Below are positions 26,639 through 34,845 of a DNA stretch of 64,000 nucleotides, in pieces. The notes beneath the pieces were generated by a model that was not told the origin of the DNA, ran no database searches, and was given only the letters and a program-made list of their open reading frames with translations. This DNA is from Sanyastnella coralliicola (GTDB lineage Bacteria; Bacteroidota; Bacteroidia; Flavobacteriales_D; Sanyastnellaceae): the NCBI RefSeq assembly GCF_030845195.1, contig NZ_CP132543.1:3737501-3801500 (forward strand). Direction: 5' to 3'. Within the stretch, counting starts at the first letter, position 1. Each line of letters starts with the position of its first letter. The translations under genes and the position numbers were made by a program.

Positions 26639-27178
26639 GTGAGATTGCTTCTTGACATATTTGTCTTTTTGGTATCCCCAGATCGAGTAGCTGACCAACG
26701 ATCCCAATCAGGCTGGAGCAAGCTGGAAGGACTCACCCTATTGATCATAGGCCTGTTGCTCACGGGTTTGCTTTATTCTAGCCGGTCTTCATTCGAATAT
26801 GCCCTTGAAAGAGAACAGTACTTCCGAATCGTCGGATCACTATTTGGTGTCGTCTTTCGTGCGTTGACCTGCGGCATCATGATCTACTTGGCTTCTCAAC
26901 GTTTTTACCCCAAGCAATGGAAGCTGTGGGATGTCCTAATGCTTTCGATGCACAGTATGATGATCTACTTCGTGAGTGCGGCACTCTTAGCCTTGTTGCC
27001 GGATGAGGTAGTGATTCCTTATAATTGGTTCATCACTTGGGTTTGGTCAGCGCTTCTATTCACGAGAGGGATTCAGATTTTCTACACCACTACTTTTTGG
27101 CGCGCCTTATTTCTCGTGCTATTTGCTAAAATCTTCAACTGGGCCTTGCTTGCCCCCTTTTTCGGATTGGAGATCTAA
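26639..27178 (+). CDS. Small polytopic membrane protein of unknown function
   Basis: 179 residues with about four to five hydrophobic helices (approximately 30-50, 63-85, 93-120, 128-145, 155-178), containing LTLLIIGLLLTGLLYSS and MLSMHSMMIYFVSAALLALL. The start is GTG at 26639, just after a terminator; no ATG gives the same N-terminal part. The overall pattern is reminiscent of Yip1/DUF3667-type membrane proteins, but I do not assign a family. The stop overlaps the convergent TPR gene by four bases. Confidence 0.7.
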   Translation: MRLLLDIFVFLVSPDRVADQRSQSGWSKLEGLTLLIIGLLLTGLLYSSRSSFEYALEREQYFRIVGSLFGVVFRALTCGIMIYLASQRFYPKQWKLWDVLMLSMHSMMIYFVSAALLALLPDEVVIPYNWFITWVWSALLFTRGIQIFYTTTFWRALFLVLFAKIFNWALLAPFFGLEI

Positions 27179-28314
27179 TCTTCGAGTACTTCAGACGCTC
27201 GTTTAGCGTAGAAGCCATTTTTCGCGATGATTTCTTGGAGGAGAGTTTCGGCTTGTTCGGCTTCACCCATTTCTTTCCACGCTAGCGCAAGGTAGAACTC
27301 ACTCTCTTCTCGGAATGTGTTGATTGCGAGATCACGTGAATCATCTAAACGTTCTGCAGCCAAAGCGTAGTCTCCTTGATAGAAAGCGGTGAGACCGCCA
27401 TAGAACAGTCCGTTCGCGTCATAAGGGAAGTGCAGGAGAATCTCTTTGAACCCTCGTTCAGCCTTTGAGTAACGCTCTTCAGCAAAGCGCTCCATGGTTT
27501 GTTCGAGGTACTCGACGTAGGCTACCTGGGTGTATTGTTGACCAATCAGTGGTTCCTCTGAGGAGTCGCTGATGGCAGCATTTGTTCCAGTCAATAGCTC
27601 GCGCTTTTCCCAGCTTTCTTCTCGTTGCCCGCGGTAATCCACCACTTTGTAATTCAACAGGTGGTAAATCGCAGCTCCAGGAATCATCACATCACGTTCT
27701 TCTTCTTCGGGTGCGTCAACAGGAGAAACTTCTTCTGGCTCTTGCGGTGCCACTGGAGCAGGAGCTTCTACACGCTCTACAAAGTGCTCAACGGGAACTT
27801 CTTCCACAGCTTGAGCAGCATCGGCTACTTCGGCCATAGTCTCACGAATGGTAAAGGTCATACTACTATCGGTCTGTGATTGATCCACGACCTCAATATG
27901 ACTCTCCTCCAATTCTTCATCTGTGTAAGGATGCACATGTGCATCCCTAGCCTCTTCTTCTAATTCTAATTCTCTCTCTGACTCTTCCTCTATCAACGTT
28001 TCCACGAGGGCATCTTCCTTTTCTTCTGGAATGGCCAGCCACACACCAGCAGCCACCACCAATACAGCAGCCATACCTAACAACCAAGGCGTCAATCCGC
28101 CAGTTGGCTGTGTTGCCGAGTGGATTTGCTGCTTCAACGCGGCACTAGCTTCTGGATTGACGCCGGCGGCTTCAAATCCTTCCATAGCCTCTGCTAGGAA
28201 TGGATCTTCCATGGCCTGCATTTCTAGCGCATGCGCTTCCTCTGCACTCAGAGAGCCATTGAAATAGGTCTCCAGCAACTGTGGATCGTATGTGTTATTC
28301 GGCTTCGCCATCAT
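27175..28314 (-). CDS. Membrane anti-sigma-like protein with periplasmic TPRs
   Basis: 379 residues. The N-terminal about 70 (LLETYFNGSLSAEEAHALEM) resemble the cytoplasmic domain of anti-sigma factors without zinc ligands. One membrane helix follows (about 75-93: PWLLGMAAVLVVAAGVWLAI), then a long acidic and Pro-rich linker, then C-terminal TPR-like helices (about 270-375: ERYSKAERGFKEILLHFPYD, GDYALAAERLDDSRDLAI). The start overlaps the ECF sigma gene by 20 bases, so the two are translationally coupled, the usual sigma/anti-sigma layout. The linker includes DAHVHP plus a Glu-rich run encoded by a repeat element (27929-27991) that also occurs between genes elsewhere. Confidence 0.75.
   Translation of the reverse strand: MMAKPNNTYDPQLLETYFNGSLSAEEAHALEMQAMEDPFLAEAMEGFEAAGVNPEASAALKQQIHSATQPTGGLTPWLLGMAAVLVVAAGVWLAIPEEKEDALVETLIEEESERELELEEEARDAHVHPYTDEELEESHIEVVDQSQTDSSMTFTIRETMAEVADAAQAVEEVPVEHFVERVEAPAPVAPQEPEEVSPVDAPEEEERDVMIPGAAIYHLLNYKVVDYRGQREESWEKRELLTGTNAAISDSSEEPLIGQQYTQVAYVEYLEQTMERFAEERYSKAERGFKEILLHFPYDANGLFYGGLTAFYQGDYALAAERLDDSRDLAINTFREESEFYLALAWKEMGEAEQAETLLQEIIAKNGFYAKRASEVLED
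27929..27991. repeat. Intragenic copy of the palindrome-plus-GA-tract element
   Basis: The perfect palindrome GGATGCACATGTGCATCC (27929-27946) is followed by a CT-rich tract (27951-27991), the reverse complement of GAGGAAGAG...GAATTAGAATTAGAAG. The palindrome differs from GGATGCGCATGCGCATCC at 6192-6209 only by one symmetric base-pair change. The element is read through in frame in the anti-sigma-like gene. Confidence 0.75.
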
Positions 28315-28858
28315 TCATCATCTTTAACGACAGGTTTCGCTTGCCGTTCTGTATATGGCTCTTGACCTTCTTGAGTTCCATGTTCAGCTCATCTGAGATT
28401 TGCTGGTAACTCTTCCGTTCAAGATAAAAGGCGGTGATGCATTTTCGCTGATCGTCACTCAGCTCATTAATCACACGCTCTAATTGGTTCAGTTTCGCTT
28501 CTTTCACCAACAACTCGTGCATGTTACTTTCTGCAACGAATTGTGATTCATTCACCTCAGTCACTTCAGGCTGTTGCTTTCGAAGCTGCATGAGGCAGTG
28601 GTTTCTGGTCACCGACCATAGCCACGATTTAAAGTTTGAGATCTCCGCCTTCTTCAGTTTTTCCATCAACTGTTCGAAGATCTGCATGGTCGCGTCTTCC
28701 GCGTCTTGTTGGTTCTTTAGGTATTTGAGACAGACCCCAAGAACGAGATCTACGTAGCGCTCGTAAAGGGTGCCCACCAGCGCTTTGTCACCGCTGCGCT
28801 GATATTCGCGCACCAATGCCAAATCGTCGAGTTGCTTTTTCTTCCATCTCAATCCCAT
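28295..28858 (-). CDS. ECF-type RNA polymerase sigma factor
   Basis: 187 residues from the ATG at 28858. A GTG at 28876 is in frame but lies inside the terminator stem at 28868-28899, so it is rejected. Region 2 is YERYVDLVLGVCLKYLKNQQDAEDATMQIF with the SWLWSVTRNHCLMQLRK segment. Region 4 is LSDDQRKCITAFYLERKSYQQISDELNMELKKVKSHI, an HTH of the RpoE/SigW class. It is probably held inactive by the product of the overlapping gene 27175-28314. Confidence 0.9.
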   Translation of the reverse strand: MGLRWKKKQLDDLALVREYQRSGDKALVGTLYERYVDLVLGVCLKYLKNQQDAEDATMQIFEQLMEKLKKAEISNFKSWLWSVTRNHCLMQLRKQQPEVTEVNESQFVAESNMHELLVKEAKLNQLERVINELSDDQRKCITAFYLERKSYQQISDELNMELKKVKSHIQNGKRNLSLKMMNDGEAE

Positions 28859-28865
28859 GCCATAC

Positions 28866-28900
28866 AAGAGCCTCACCAGAGGAATTTCCGGTGAGGCTCA
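28866..28900 (-). terminator. Terminator between the plug-only gene and the ECF sigma gene
   Basis: A perfect 10-bp stem, GAGCCTCACC (28868-28877) against GGTGAGGCTC (28890-28899), is followed on the minus strand by TTGT, a weak tract. It lies ten bases after the stop at 28910 and may act as an attenuator, not a full stop, in front of the sigma gene. Confidence 0.65.
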
Positions 28901-28909
28901 AGGTAAGGT

Positions 28910-29626
28910 CTATTCTTCACTGTACAACCATTCGTTGTAGAGGTCGAAGTAATTTTTTGATTCAATCACGACAACACCACCTGTGGTATCGCCGTATTTC
29001 GCAGGAACTCCTCCAGTGTACACAGACACGGATCCAATTCCTGACGCCGGAATTCCACCGAAGTTTCCAGTGACTTTCATTCCGTCAACAAAGGTGATCA
29101 CCGTTCCAGCACGCGCTCCACGAAAGTGAAGTTCTTGTGTTGTTGGGTCAACGTATACCGCAGGTGTCATCGTTGAGATGATTCCTTTGATATCACGCTT
29201 CACCGGGCTGTGCTCCAGTTCTTCCGCACGAATGACTGCCTTTGAGACACCGTCTTTTTCGATCAAAGGAATCTTATGTTCAAGAATCTCTGCAGCACCT
29301 ACCATAATTGGATCAGCTCCCATGGAAATCTTGTCTAGAAAGGTGATTTGGTCTGGATTTACACGAACGCTAGCGATCGTGTATTCACTCAAGCCAACGA
29401 ATGTCACTTTTACCGTGTAGACACCAGCATTTAACGGCTTAATCTTGAACTTTCCGTCTAAATCTGTTGCCACGCCAAACTGGTTTTCTCCAGCTTCTGC
29501 AACCACATAGGCATTAGGCAACGGCGTACCCGTCTCATCTTTCACTGTTCCGTGGATCTCTCCCCACTGCTGTGCGCTGAGCGCTCCTGAAATCAAAAGC
29601 CCCAGCAGGATCAATAGATTTTTCAT
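28910..29626 (-). CDS. TonB receptor-like protein reduced to regulatory and plug domains
   Basis: 238 residues. A signal peptide (MKNLLILLGLLISGALSAQQ) precedes a CarboxypepD_reg-like domain (about 22-105: EIHGTVKDETGTPLPNAYVV) and a plug domain (about 120-228: EHSPVKRDIKGIISTMTPAV, GTVITFVDGMKVTGNFGGIP, VYTGGVPAKYGDTTGGVVVIES). It ends there; the barrel (normally over 500 residues) is absent, and no barrel remnant exists downstream, where a terminator and the sigma gene follow. A periplasmic role is likely, possibly signalling to the adjacent sigma/anti-sigma pair, but this is inference. Confidence 0.8.
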   Translation of the reverse strand: MKNLLILLGLLISGALSAQQWGEIHGTVKDETGTPLPNAYVVAEAGENQFGVATDLDGKFKIKPLNAGVYTVKVTFVGLSEYTIASVRVNPDQITFLDKISMGADPIMVGAAEILEHKIPLIEKDGVSKAVIRAEELEHSPVKRDIKGIISTMTPAVYVDPTTQELHFRGARAGTVITFVDGMKVTGNFGGIPASGIGSVSVYTGGVPAKYGDTTGGVVVIESKNYFDLYNEWLYSEE

Positions 29627-29758
29627 GTCAAATTAAATTATGCGTTGGATGCAGCTGCGGTTCCTCGGCGGGTTATTTGACTACTTGATGCAGGGGAGTT
29701 AACAATTCCATAACGTGGGAGGGGAATTTTCTTGAGGGGGTGTGTAACTGCATGGTAA

Positions 29759-30240
29759 ACAGGGGTATAGGTGCGGGTCTGGATGTGGAATGTGGAATGT
29801 GGAACGCGGGACGCGGGACGCGGGTTGCGGTGAGTGAGGCGCATGAGATGCGCGGCGGTTAAGGGCACGCATGCGTGCCCTTACCATATGGTCTATGTGA
29901 TGGAACGCGGAATGCGGGTTGCGGATCGCGGATCGCGATGGGTGATGGGTGATGGGTGAGGCGCAAAATTGCGCCGCTAAAGGACCAGATTCGCCTAATA
30001 GGCGAATGTAGGGGCGCATGAAATGCGTCCGTATCATACGAATGTCGTGGTTTGGCAGCCTGCGGTGGTTAAGGGCACGCATGCGTGCCCCTTGGCCTAG
30101 CTGATGGAACGTGGGCGGGGTTTATAAACGCCGTTGTTGATAGGTGCCATTTGAAACACACCTTGGGATCGGATGGATTTCATCCATCCCTACAATGATT
30201 TCTGTTAGATGAAGTATTCAAGGCGTTTTCAAACGCCTCA
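29759..30240. repeat. Cluster of REP-like hairpins and degenerate tandem tracts
   Basis: This is part of an 881-base non-coding stretch (29627-30507). Tracts: GGACGCGGGACGCGGG-type (29786-29830), GGATCGCGGATCGCG (29926-29940) and three GATGGGT units (29938-29957). Hairpins: GCGCAT/ATGCGC (29839-29853), GGGCACGCATGCGTGCCC (29863-29880 and 30073-30090), GGCGC/GCGCC (29960-29975), ATTCGCC/GGCGAAT (29989-30007), GGGCGCAT/ATGCGTCC (30012-30030), GGATGGAT/ATCCATCC (30171-30189) and AGGCGTTT/AAACGCCT (30221-30238). The word GGTTAAGGGCACGCATGCG occurs twice. No ORF in it looks protein-like. Confidence 0.8.
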
Positions 30241-30402: not shown

Positions 30403-30507
30403 TAAGAGATAGGATTACAGCAATTGCATTAACTTATTGTCATCAAAACCCGCTCACATACAACCATTTGGTCTTCGTCCTTGTCTTATATGAACACTGC
30501 ACGGATT

Positions 30508-33500
30508 ATGAAACGATTTGCTCTACTACTTATCCTGGCTTCAATCTCGGTGTCGCTCTTTGCACACAACGGGAGAAAAGCCTTCAATTTCCGCGAAAAC
30601 CTTGGCCAATGGCACGATAACGTGAAGTATCGTGTGGCGATGGGCAACGCTACGCTCTTCCTTGAAGAGAATGCGATGACGTGGAATATCGTTCACCCTG
30701 AAGATTACGATTTGATTCATGAAAGCTCAGAATGGTCGCGCCAAGAACTGTTGGCCTGGCAACTGCGCGGACATGCCTACAAGGTGATTTTCGAGAATGG
30801 GAATACACAGAACATTGTAGGACAAGAGCAAGAAAGCACTTACTACAACTATTTCCTGGGCAATGACCAGTCGAAGTGGGCAAGTAATGTGCATGGATTC
30901 AACGCAGTGCGCTACTCTCAAATCTGGGATGGTGTGGGCATGCGTATTTACAATTCTGCAGATCAGTTGAAGTATGATTTCATCGTTAACGCTAACGCGG
31001 AAACGGATCAGGTTGTATTGCGCTATGAAGGCCTAGAAGGAATGTCGATAGTAGACGGCGTTCTTTACCTCGAAACGAGCGTAGGTCAGATTACGGAGTT
31101 GGCACCTTACGCCTACCAGATGAATGGAAACTCGATGGAAGAAGTTGCCTGTGAATACGTGCTCTCAGGTGACAAGATTAGTTTTTCATTCCCTGATGGA
31201 TACGACACTTCACGACAGTTGATCATCGACCCTATTGTCATTGCATCAACGCTTTCTGGAACGACAGGAGATAGCAACTACGGACACAGTGCCGCATATG
31301 ATATCGCCGGAAACATTTACACTGGAGCTCGCGCTTTCGGTGCTGGTTACCCTACCACTACAGGTGCGTATCAAGAAGACTTCGCTGGAGCAGGTTTCGC
31401 TGTGGATATGGCGATGTCAAAGCTAAACCCGACAGGAACTGACCTTTTATGGGCAAGCTACCTTGGAGGTACGGATACGGATTACCCACACTCGTTGATT
31501 GCTAATGATTTTGAGGAACTGTACGTGTATGGTTCTACTTCATCAAACGATTTCCCAGTTTCTGACGACGCTTACCAGCCTGATTACGGGGGAGGCACAG
31601 ATATCGTAGTCTCTCACTTCTCTGCTGATGGAACCGAATTGATCGGATCAACTTACATGGGGGGTTCAGACCAAGACGGAGTGAACTCGGCGAGTGTAAA
31701 CTATGGAGATACCTTCCGAGGTGAGATTGTGCTCAATGGCGATCAAATTCCATATGTAGCTTCCTTCTCTACATCAACCGATTTCCCAACAACCGGTGGT
31801 GTTTATCAGCCAGCCAACGCAGGCGAACAAGACGCGGTCATCTTCACGATGAACGAAGAATTGAGCTCGCTGACTTGGTCTACATACCTAGGAGGTACGG
31901 CAGCGGATACAGGCTACGGTTTGCGTGTGACAGTTGATGGAAATGTTTTCGTCGCTGGTCAAGCTGGATCAGATGATTTTCCAACAACAGCAGGCGCCTA
32001 CGAAACGACCTTCCAAGGTGGAGGAGGCGGAGGATGGGGTCCTGAAAAGGACGGATTCCTAGCACGTCTTTCTGCCAATGGAGCTGACCTTCAAGCGTGT
32101 ACATTCTACGGTACAACAGAAGAAGACCAAGCTTTCTTCGTAGACCTCAATAACGATGAAGAACCCTTCATTTACGGACAATCACAAGGAGATATACCTG
32201 TAACAGCAGATGTATATTCTGAAGAAGATGGTTCACTCTTCATCGCTAAATTCAATTACGCACTTACCGAGTTGCTCGCGGCTTCCCGTATGGCTGTATC
32301 AACCTGGGGTGGATATGCCGGGGTACCGGTAGCCTTCTTGGTTGACCGTTGTGATAATATCTACATCTCAGCCTACAGCGCTGGAGGAGACTTGTCGTTG
32401 ACTGATGATGCGGTATACGACACTGGAGGCTTCTACCTCGCTGCTTATGGTGAAGACATTTCAACCCTCGAGTTCGCGTCATACTATGGTGCAAACCACG
32501 TAGACGGAGGAACTTCCCGATTTGATAAGAACGGAATCATCTACCAAGGTGTATGTTCTGGAGGGGGCTTCCCGACAAATGCCGACGCTTACGCAACAGA
32601 CCAGTCGATTGGTTGGGATATCGGTGTATTTAAAATGGACTTCCAGGTTTCTGGGGTGAATGCTGCAATTACGGCTAGCGCCGATGCCTTGAATGGTTGT
32701 GCGCCGCATACGATCGAATTCAACAACTACTCGGTAGGTAACATCTACACATGGGATTTCGGTGACGGATCTCCTTTGAACAACGAATTTGAGCCGGAGC
32801 ACACGTACACAGAACCTGGCGTTTACGAAGTGAGTCTGATCTCTCTTGACTCATTGTCATGTAACCTCGCTGATACGGCGTACTTGGAGATCTCAATCTC
32901 AGAGCCAACAGATTTCTTGGCGGCCTTCGAAGTCCAGCTTGACTGTGAAGACCTAGGTATCGTTACAGATAATCAAACAGGAATTGAGTGGCTAGAATAC
33001 CAGTGGGACATGGGAGACGGAACCATCCTTGAAGGTTTCAATGTGGAGCACTTCTACGTTGAGGAAGGTGACTATACCATCACATTGAACGCAGTAGATA
33101 ATGGTTGTGATGCAGACGACGAAGCATCGCAAGATGTACAGATCGTTGGCAGTGTCTTAGCCAGTACCGATGCGAGTTCTTATGAAGGCTGTGGTGAGCT
33201 CACTATTGATTTTGCAAACACCAGTAACGGATTGACCTATGAATGGGATTTTGGTGATGGTTCTCCTACCACCACCGATGAAAACCCAAGTCACACCTTC
33301 CAACCAGGAGAATATACTGTGACGCTGACTGCTTTCCACCCAGAAAGCTGTAACCTTGAAGACGACACCACCCTAACGGTAGTTGTTGGACCAGATCAAG
33401 TGATTGATGCGGCATTCCAGCTCCTGCAAACAGACTGTGAGTCGTTCCTGGTCGAAGGAACAGACCAAAGTACAGGAGAGTTCCTAGCCTTCGAATGGGA

Positions 33501-34845
33501 CATGGATGACGGAACAACTTATGACACCCCAGATATCTCGCATAACTACGGGGCGATGGGTGAATACCAAGTCTCTTTGACCATTACAGACACCTTGTGT
33601 GACGCATCAGATACAGAAATACTGAACATTACGGTGCTTGATGAGGTCACGGCCATCATTGGGAACGATGACCTCGAGGGGTGTCATCCATACGTAGCCT
33701 TGTTTGAGAATAACAGTGCCGGAACGAACTTCTACTGGGACTTCGGTGACGGTTCACCTGTGATTGATTCTCAAGTGGCGGAACACGAATACGCTGAACC
33801 AGGTGTATACACCGTGACGCTCACTGTAGAAGGTGTTGGAAACTGTGGAGGAACAGATGTCACCGAAGCCATTGTAACAGTGGTGGAAACGCCGGAGATC
33901 GAAGCCTTGTTCGAAATGGAGCAAACGGGGGCATGTGAAGCCATGACGGTTGACTTCGACAACCTAAGTACAGGCGATGGCCTGGAATACGATTGGTCAG
34001 TTGATGGTACAACCTATTCGGTAGCTGAAATGGAACACATATTTAGTGGACCTGGAACCTATGATATCGTCTTGAATATCTCGGAGCCAGTGTGTGATGC
34101 CACGGATAGCTTCAGCCAAACCATTGAAGTGCTTGACGGCATTGATTTGATTGCACCTGATGACGTGTACATGTGTTACTACGAATTCACGAAAGACATC
34201 GCTATTACTGGTCCGGCGGAAGCAACATACGAGTGGAACACTGGTGAAACAGAACAAGCAATCACCATCACAGAACCAGGAATCTACACGATTACAGCTA
34301 CGCTGAACAACTGTACTGACTCCGAAGGATTGGAGGTCATCGGGGTAGAGAAATTGATCTTGCTAGACAATCCAACGGCTTGTGAAGGCATTCAGACCAT
34401 GCTCGAAATCCCTTACGACGACGGTACAAATTACCAGTGGTGTGATGGATCAGAGCTAGATTACATTTATGCTTCAGAACCAGGAGAGTACTGCTACCAG
34501 TTCACCGATATATTCGGATGTCAACAAGAAGGGCTGGTGATCCTAGATCAAGTAGATCAAGACGGAACCATCTACATTCCAAATGCGTTCACACCGAACA
34601 ACGATGGAATCAACGATATCTTCAAAGCCGAAGGGGTAGACATTCGCTCATTTGAACTAACGGTTTGGAACCGTTGGGGAGAAGAAGTGTACCGCTCAGA
34701 ATCGATCGACCAATTCTGGGATGGATCTAACCAAGGAAGCGAATACTACGTGCAAGACGGAGTCTACACTTGGCGTGTAGAATACAACAGCACATGTAGT
34801 TCTGAAAAAGTCTTGGAGACAGGTACCGTGCTCATCATGCGATGA
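30508..34845 (+). CDS. Giant SBBP/PKD surface protein with type B T9SS (CHU_C) domain
   Basis: 1445 residues from the ATG at 30508, which begins a signal peptide (MKRFALLLILASISVSLFA); a TTG at 30481 would add nine residues. The N-terminal domain (about 22-240, FNFRENLGQWHDNVKYRVAMG) is the one that precedes SBBP propellers. SBBP-like repeats follow (about 255-710: LLWASYLGGTDTDYPHSLI, SSLTWSTYLGGTAADTGYGL). Five to six PKD domains follow (YTWDFGDGSPLNNEFEPEHTY, YEWDFGDGSPTTTDENPSHTF). The end is the gliding-motility CHU_C domain (IPNAFTPNNDGINDIFKAEG, ELTVWNRWGEEVY). It is predicted to be a secreted, surface-attached adhesin or gliding-associated protein. Its stop directly abuts that of the convergent gene. 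Confidence 0.88.
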   Translation: MKRFALLLILASISVSLFAHNGRKAFNFRENLGQWHDNVKYRVAMGNATLFLEENAMTWNIVHPEDYDLIHESSEWSRQELLAWQLRGHAYKVIFENGNTQNIVGQEQESTYYNYFLGNDQSKWASNVHGFNAVRYSQIWDGVGMRIYNSADQLKYDFIVNANAETDQVVLRYEGLEGMSIVDGVLYLETSVGQITELAPYAYQMNGNSMEEVACEYVLSGDKISFSFPDGYDTSRQLIIDPIVIASTLSGTTGDSNYGHSAAYDIAGNIYTGARAFGAGYPTTTGAYQEDFAGAGFAVDMAMSKLNPTGTDLLWASYLGGTDTDYPHSLIANDFEELYVYGSTSSNDFPVSDDAYQPDYGGGTDIVVSHFSADGTELIGSTYMGGSDQDGVNSASVNYGDTFRGEIVLNGDQIPYVASFSTSTDFPTTGGVYQPANAGEQDAVIFTMNEELSSLTWSTYLGGTAADTGYGLRVTVDGNVFVAGQAGSDDFPTTAGAYETTFQGGGGGGWGPEKDGFLARLSANGADLQACTFYGTTEEDQAFFVDLNNDEEPFIYGQSQGDIPVTADVYSEEDGSLFIAKFNYALTELLAASRMAVSTWGGYAGVPVAFLVDRCDNIYISAYSAGGDLSLTDDAVYDTGGFYLAAYGEDISTLEFASYYGANHVDGGTSRFDKNGIIYQGVCSGGGFPTNADAYATDQSIGWDIGVFKMDFQVSGVNAAITASADALNGCAPHTIEFNNYSVGNIYTWDFGDGSPLNNEFEPEHTYTEPGVYEVSLISLDSLSCNLADTAYLEISISEPTDFLAAFEVQLDCEDLGIVTDNQTGIEWLEYQWDMGDGTILEGFNVEHFYVEEGDYTITLNAVDNGCDADDEASQDVQIVGSVLASTDASSYEGCGELTIDFANTSNGLTYEWDFGDGSPTTTDENPSHTFQPGEYTVTLTAFHPESCNLEDDTTLTVVVGPDQVIDAAFQLLQTDCESFLVEGTDQSTGEFLAFEWDMDDGTTYDTPDISHNYGAMGEYQVSLTITDTLCDASDTEILNITVLDEVTAIIGNDDLEGCHPYVALFENNSAGTNFYWDFGDGSPVIDSQVAEHEYAEPGVYTVTLTVEGVGNCGGTDVTEAIVTVVETPEIEALFEMEQTGACEAMTVDFDNLSTGDGLEYDWSVDGTTYSVAEMEHIFSGPGTYDIVLNISEPVCDATDSFSQTIEVLDGIDLIAPDDVYMCYYEFTKDIAITGPAEATYEWNTGETEQAITITEPGIYTITATLNNCTDSEGLEVIGVEKLILLDNPTACEGIQTMLEIPYDDGTNYQWCDGSELDYIYASEPGEYCYQFTDIFGCQQEGLVILDQVDQDGTIYIPNAFTPNNDGINDIFKAEGVDIRSFELTVWNRWGEEVYRSESIDQFWDGSNQGSEYYVQDGVYTWRVEYNSTCSSEKVLETGTVLIMR

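Follow-up and report, generated by a model that had tools for sequence, protein, structure and literature searches.

The window analysed here, a 64,000-nucleotide stretch of the Sanyastnella coralliicola genome, carries three consecutive minus-strand genes. They encode a protein with the plug domain of a TonB-dependent receptor, an extracytoplasmic function (ECF) sigma factor and a membrane protein ending in tetratricopeptide repeats (TPRs; Table 1). The plug protein scores above the PF07715 cut-off, and Pfam and Foldseek both assign the domain to the Plug fold; its structure model (mean predicted local distance difference test score 76, predicted template modelling score 0.47) resembles transthyretin-like domains, the SusC N-terminal extension and the plugs of FepA, PfeA and Cir. 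A low-confidence linker (amino acids (aa) 108-126) occupies the place expected for a TonB box. The protein terminates 20 aa past the Plug domain, and Pfam detected no barrel family in it at E up to 0.1. Moreover, no open reading frame (ORF) for a barrel adjoins the gene in the window: a divergent gene for a 1454-aa protein lies on its 5′ side and the sigma and anti-sigma-like genes on its 3′ side. These results bear out an earlier note on this DNA, which had described a plug protein without a barrel and without a remnant of one nearby. The regulatory domain named in that note is present but belongs to the CarboxypepD/transthyretin-like type and not to the STN type of Fec-type transducers; STN gave no Pfam match at E up to 0.1, and a CarboxypepD_reg domain is found instead.

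The arrangement of the two downstream genes also agrees with the earlier description, in which the plug gene lies upstream of an ECF sigma gene that overlaps a gene for a membrane, TPR-containing anti-sigma-like protein. All three are on the minus strand, and the sigma gene, with its match above the TIGR02937 cut-off, overlaps by 20 bp the downstream gene for a 379-aa protein with one transmembrane-like helix in its model, as is characteristic of ECF sigma/membrane protein pairs. The listed GTG start of the sigma gene (28876) falls within a hairpin, and the ATG at 28861 is preferred. The model of the 379-aa protein shows N-terminal helices, the transmembrane-like helix, a disordered stretch and, at its end, the TPR helices. 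Matches to single-repeat TPR families of Pfam are below cut-off, neither FecR nor any other anti-sigma family was found at E up to 0.1 in Pfam and NCBIfam, and there was no match to a barrel. From gene order, overlap and topology we infer that this protein acts as the anti-sigma factor, and its gene is called the anti-sigma gene below. The hairpin between the plug and sigma genes, which the earlier note had proposed to set the ratio of their products, is real and is retained in the nearest relative; however, a stem of at least 8 bp occurs at 13 of the 53 loci examined, so that it is no general feature and a ratio device fails as a general rule.

Table 1. Features of the plug-sigma-anti-sigma locus, in positions of the window.
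Feature	Position	Strand	Basis and remarks
Plug-only gene, first gene of the operon, 238-aa product	28910..29626	-	ORF, Pfam, relatives, model
Signal-peptide-like N-terminus, aa 1-19, without lipobox cysteine	29570..29626	-	judged by eye
CarboxypepD_reg domain, aa 24-95	29342..29557	-	Pfam E 1.9e-16; Foldseek: transthyretin-like domains, SusC N-terminal extension 9hfj
TonB-dependent receptor Plug domain, aa 128-218	28973..29245	-	Pfam PF07715 E 5.7e-8; Foldseek: FepA/PfeA/Cir
Conserved C-terminal tail, aa 224-238, K-N-Y-F-D-L-Y...	28913..28957	-	alignment, model (helix)
Predicted ECF-sigma promoter, TATGGAAT-N13-GCATC	29687..29712	-	upstream-region alignment, pattern, matrix; ends 60 bp 5′ of the plug start codon
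10-bp hairpin between plug and sigma genes	28868..28899		folds at -25.7 kcal/mol
ECF sigma gene	28295..28861	-	Sigma70_r2, Sigma70_r4_2 (Pfam); TIGR02937 above, TIGR02985 below cut-off (NCBIfam)
Anti-sigma-like membrane protein gene, 379 aa	27175..28314	-	ORF, Pfam, relatives, model
Transmembrane-like helix of anti-sigma-like protein, aa 76-94	28033..28089	-	inferred from model and sequence
TPR domain, aa 266-378, periplasmic by inference	27181..27519	-	model; Foldseek best: YbgF TPR 2xev

The distribution of the three genes was analysed in 60 genomes of the order, including that of S. coralliicola, with an E threshold of 1e-8 for the anti-sigma gene. A short plug ORF (open frame of 237-303 aa) was found in 32 of the 60 genomes and the anti-sigma gene in 27, all of which also have the plug gene (Fisher 2.4e-12, uncorrected for kinship). 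Among the other five plug-bearing genomes, G005 and G032 have sigma and anti-sigma genes and G013 the sigma gene only, while in G021 and G036, which belong to one genus, the plug gene is kept and the anti-sigma gene was not found genome-wide. The best 80 of 328 confirmed relatives were taken as named loci: 78 have short plugs and two have full-length ones. All three genes are present at 55 of them, plug and sigma at three, and the plug with no sigma gene in the stretch at 20, two of which end at a contig edge. The order plug, sigma, anti-sigma is stable and the outer neighbours vary. By their titles, the hosts are mostly metagenome-assembled genomes (MAGs) of Flavobacteriales; Bacteroidales, further Bacteroidetes and one cultured species, Cryomorpha ignava (L117), are also represented. 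The plug family extends beyond the order, into Bacteroidales MAGs. In a scan of 395 genomes of the phylum, the anti-sigma profile (E 1e-8, five candidates scored per genome) matched 72 genomes, with only partial matches beyond G000 (the genome of the window), G007 and G044; these partial matches mostly cover the N-terminal or the TPR part. The plug profile (E 1e-42, seven candidates scored per genome) matched 12 genomes, the short form being confined to the same three and the other nine matches being full-length receptors. The comparison of gene content and order shows that the genes for the plug, the sigma factor and the putative TPR-bearing anti-sigma factor are conserved as a unit, as the earlier note had expected if its proposal held, and the functional tie between the plug and the sigma pair is strong.

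The nearest full-length paralogue of the plug protein, a receptor encoded in the same genome, is about 1225 aa long and has 39% identity over the common part. Full-length receptors with CarboxypepD_reg and Plug at their N-terminus share the domain order and plug core of the plug-only protein; they continue past the plug, whereas the plug-only protein stops there with a conserved tail of its own. This kinship is what would be expected if the gene were a decayed TonB-dependent receptor that has lost its barrel. However, the phylogenetic tree places 32 plug-only rows on one side of a branch and 20 full-length plugs on the other (support 92/90), which indicates that these 32 plug-only genes are of one origin. 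The ratio of non-synonymous to synonymous substitution rates (dN/dS) comes to 0.16 when the gene is compared with its nearest relative, and two pairs in which dS is close to saturation give 0.06 and 0.04; judged from these values, the plug gene is evidently under purifying selection. The tail is conserved: of 79 rows, 72 show the loose form [TSM][KRQ]x[YF][FLM], and 31 have YFDLY exactly, preceded by [TS][KRQ]x. A conserved tail, a single origin and low dN/dS disfavour simple decay, no frameshifted barrel was seen, and the short form is present in more than half of the 60 genomes; decay was therefore rejected and has next to no probability. The 1225-aa receptor itself (L093:6295-9972, G000:C1 around 2979312) has long-frame relatives in 54 of the 60 genomes and is followed by two large proteins, the second ending in what by eye appears to be a C-terminal signal of the type IX secretion system (T9SS), and a PorV-like protein. 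At six loci (L128, L163, L175, L138, L142 and L169), plug-only genes or fragments of them stand in tandem, two or three per locus, with no adjacent sigma gene. These loci come from MAGs whose titles name Flavobacteriales, Crocinitomicaceae, Fluviicola or Crocinitomix, and all six genomes have an anti-sigma gene elsewhere.

Seven rows lack the loose tail: five from a clade without an anti-sigma gene, in which the tail is degenerate (SFRDAARE), together with L100 (YFDLY without the K) and L160. TPRs often bind terminal peptides. That the tail has degenerated in a clade lacking the anti-sigma gene, which counts as one evolutionary event, suggests feedback through contact of the tail with the TPR domain, and the presence of the plug in all 27 anti-sigma genomes likewise agrees with the plug acting as a signalling partner of the TPR domain. 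There is a precedent in FoxA, whose signalling domain, once FoxA has been cleaved, is reported to bind and protect its anti-sigma factor (PMC11637429). Nevertheless, neither an STN nor a FecR domain was found with Pfam and NCBIfam, L164 keeps the tail with no convincing anti-sigma match, and the plug gene persists together with a further gene, described below, in G021 and G036, from which the anti-sigma gene is missing. Signalling through such a contact as the role of the plug is consequently rated as rather unlikely.

The alignment of upstream regions revealed a promoter-form motif before the plug gene, and its copy at 29687-29712 is the only exact match in the window. By pattern, it precedes the plug at 51 of the 59 loci where a sigma gene adjoins (window included; spacer mostly 13) and at 13 of the 20 where none does. 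By matrix, 50 of 53 loci reach the 99% level of shuffled sequences, a count that is descriptive because sites of this kind served as the training set. The genome of the window has 26 pattern sites against eight for the reversed pattern, and 24 of the 27 anti-sigma-positive genomes together have 92 against 19. With a longer exact pattern, the 27 anti-sigma-positive genomes have 29 sites and the 33 others eight, and the reverse of this pattern occurs six times in all 60. Out of 99 distinct sites in loci fetched around the hits, 43 are intergenic with an ORF downstream and 46 lie inside ORFs of at least 150 aa, so that many sites are due to chance and single, non-recurrent targets are unreliable. 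Genomes that lack the anti-sigma gene mostly lack the motif as well. Ten of 11 motif-bearing plug loci without an adjacent sigma gene belong to genomes with an anti-sigma gene elsewhere; five motif-less plug loci of one clade belong to genomes with no anti-sigma gene (0 of 5), L146 and L151 not being independent of G021 and G036; and the motif-less L164 has only a weak, partial anti-sigma match. L144 and L173, which are cut at contig ends, have the motif and no anti-sigma match.

The motif was also observed upstream of a few other genes. One encodes the TonB_C protein of G056 (L308:718-1410), and others encode DUF4139/DUF4140 proteins at L335 (identified by Pfam), L244 (by similarity to L335) and L251 (by eye), those of L244 and L335 with an inserted CarboxypepD domain and L251 in a genome, G041, without a plug-only or anti-sigma match. 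The DUF4139 family was rejected as a core target, as the motif scored above 8 at 5 of 19 loci in genomes with the sigma or anti-sigma gene (G000, G003, G034, G050 and G058) and at none of the nine other loci; in this count L407 and L416 are without a listed ORF, and the ORF listed for L404, L415 and perhaps L420 seems to be a neighbouring one, so that these loci do not inform the count. In G017 and G034 the motif stands upstream of one receptor (L263, L264; 894 aa in G034), which would suit a split receptor, in which the plug inserts in trans into the barrel encoded by another gene and gates it. The plug protein does have the fold and conserved core of a true plug domain; however, the neighbourhoods of the unit show no conserved barrel gene, and the tail is unlike the plug-to-barrel joint of the full-length paralogue. 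A split receptor is thus regarded as improbable.

Five proteins from five genomes among the intergenic motif hits matched one and the same family (E 7e-60 or better), which had not been sought. Its members are secreted and have an N-terminal CarboxypepD domain; the remainder is guessed by eye to be a beta-propeller, and we refer to them as propeller-like proteins. The family is present at 15 of the 80 named plug loci, following the anti-sigma gene in 13 and standing beside a sigma-less plug in L129 and L164; by title, six of these loci are from Bacteroidales, one from Marinilabiliales, one from Flavobacteriales and seven from others. Gene starts were anchored by profile, since the motif contains ATG. 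The matrix, for which only sites of plug genes had been used in training, finds a site over threshold before the propeller-like gene in 24 of 26 anti-sigma genomes. Among 296 control ORFs, which are other ORFs of plug neighbourhoods with a length of 150 aa or more, it does so for 2. In the propeller-like genes, the motif begins 33-47 bp 5′ of the gene start. The motif also precedes the propeller-like gene in G005 and G032, which have the plug and the sigma pair and are outside the 26, and is lacking in G024, G021 and G036. Across the 60 genomes, 30 have both plug and propeller-like gene, two the plug only, two the propeller-like gene only and 26 neither (the Fisher test is uncorrected for kinship, and the partial match of G057, E 2.9e-22, was left out). 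These comparisons show that the plug gene and an unlinked propeller-like gene share a motif of promoter form and that the two are co-inherited. Moreover, the genus of G021 and G036 keeps both genes without an anti-sigma gene, an adjacent sigma gene or the motif.

Taken together, the plug protein is most likely a sigma-controlled envelope effector that works with the propeller-like protein, a reading to which we assign a probability of about 60%. The membrane protein would restrain the sigma factor until an envelope cue arrives at its TPR domain. The freed sigma factor would then read the predicted TATGGAAT-N13-GCATC promoter, so that the plug operon would regulate itself, and would bring about production of the plug and propeller-like proteins, which may act jointly on the periplasmic side of the outer membrane; the plug domain would be an independent binding module rather than the cork of a pore. 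The survival of the plug and propeller-like genes without regulators in one genus suggests that the main role of the plug is that of an effector, with feedback possible and secondary, and that the shared task of the two proteins is probably independent of signalling. The other candidate targets, the DUF4139 protein with inserted CarboxypepD domain and the TonB_C protein of one genome, point to the envelope as well. The earlier note had cast the plug as a carrier of a signal to the TPR domain; its interpretation is partly supported, but a plug and an unlinked propeller-like gene with one predicted promoter, both kept without regulators, fit an output better than a mere input.

Several observations weigh against the effector reading. 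Survival without regulators was seen in one genus only, and the absence of a sigma match beside the plug in G021 and G036 refers to local DNA, so that an unlinked sigma gene is possible there. No anti-sigma gene was found for the motif-bearing L165, and L129 combines a motif-less plug with a 434-aa anti-sigma-like ORF elsewhere. G026 (85% complete) has the motif and the propeller-like gene with no plug or anti-sigma gene detected, and the propeller-like genes of G009 and G020 have no site over threshold. Outside the CarboxypepD part, the propeller fold found no Pfam or PDB profile match apart from weak hits. A direct contact between plug and anti-sigma protein is also possible. Plug domains have been studied as corks of TonB-dependent pores; a conserved barrel-less plug that is inherited together with a propeller-like protein and, by prediction, regulated together with it suggests a second life for the domain as a binding module. 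Through the motif the regulon becomes directly testable, and several secreted families that are as yet uncharacterised (CarboxypepD proteins, DUF4139), from Flavobacteriales and other Bacteroidota, would share one envelope response.

Next to the unit, the window contains the gene of the 1454-aa protein with DUF7948, PKD and CHU_C domains (30481-34845), a T9SS-type cargo gene that runs opposite to the plug gene; this cargo family also adjoins the plug in G001, G003, G034 and G017. Short arrays of differing 7-bp units lie between the plug promoter and this divergent gene (29783-29959).

Three known systems invite comparison. The T9SS Plug protein, the plug subunit of the SprA translocon (PMC7463736), was rejected as a relative, since it shares the name only: phmmer matched 12 PDB chains at E up to 1, and the T9SS protein is not among them. 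The Dma factors are likewise a Bacteroidota ECF/anti-sigma pair linked to the outer envelope, and Dma itself is reported to reach, with its domains, from the outer membrane to the cytosol (PMC13088901). Here, unlike in Dma, the membrane protein ends in TPRs, as its model shows with no match to a barrel, and the domain of outer-membrane type is encoded by a separate gene; assignment to the Dma factors was therefore rejected. Fec, Fox and Pup signalling likewise combine an ECF sigma factor and a membrane anti-sigma factor beside a receptor-plug gene, with a promoter of the sigma type, here a predicted one, before that gene. A search of titles and abstracts in the open-licence literature found no barrel-less plug in an ECF system. 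The Fec/Pup analogy drawn in the earlier note is loose in that the receptor barrel, the STN signalling domain and the FecR domain of the Fec type were not found. Unlike in the Fec type, the anti-sigma protein has TPRs and the second conserved target is a propeller-like protein. A surface-signalling circuit in which a soluble two-protein sensor-effector replaces the receptor barrel is a doubtful description of the whole. Although three defining features of the Fec type are missing, the system is like a relative of cell-surface signalling in the way it would work.

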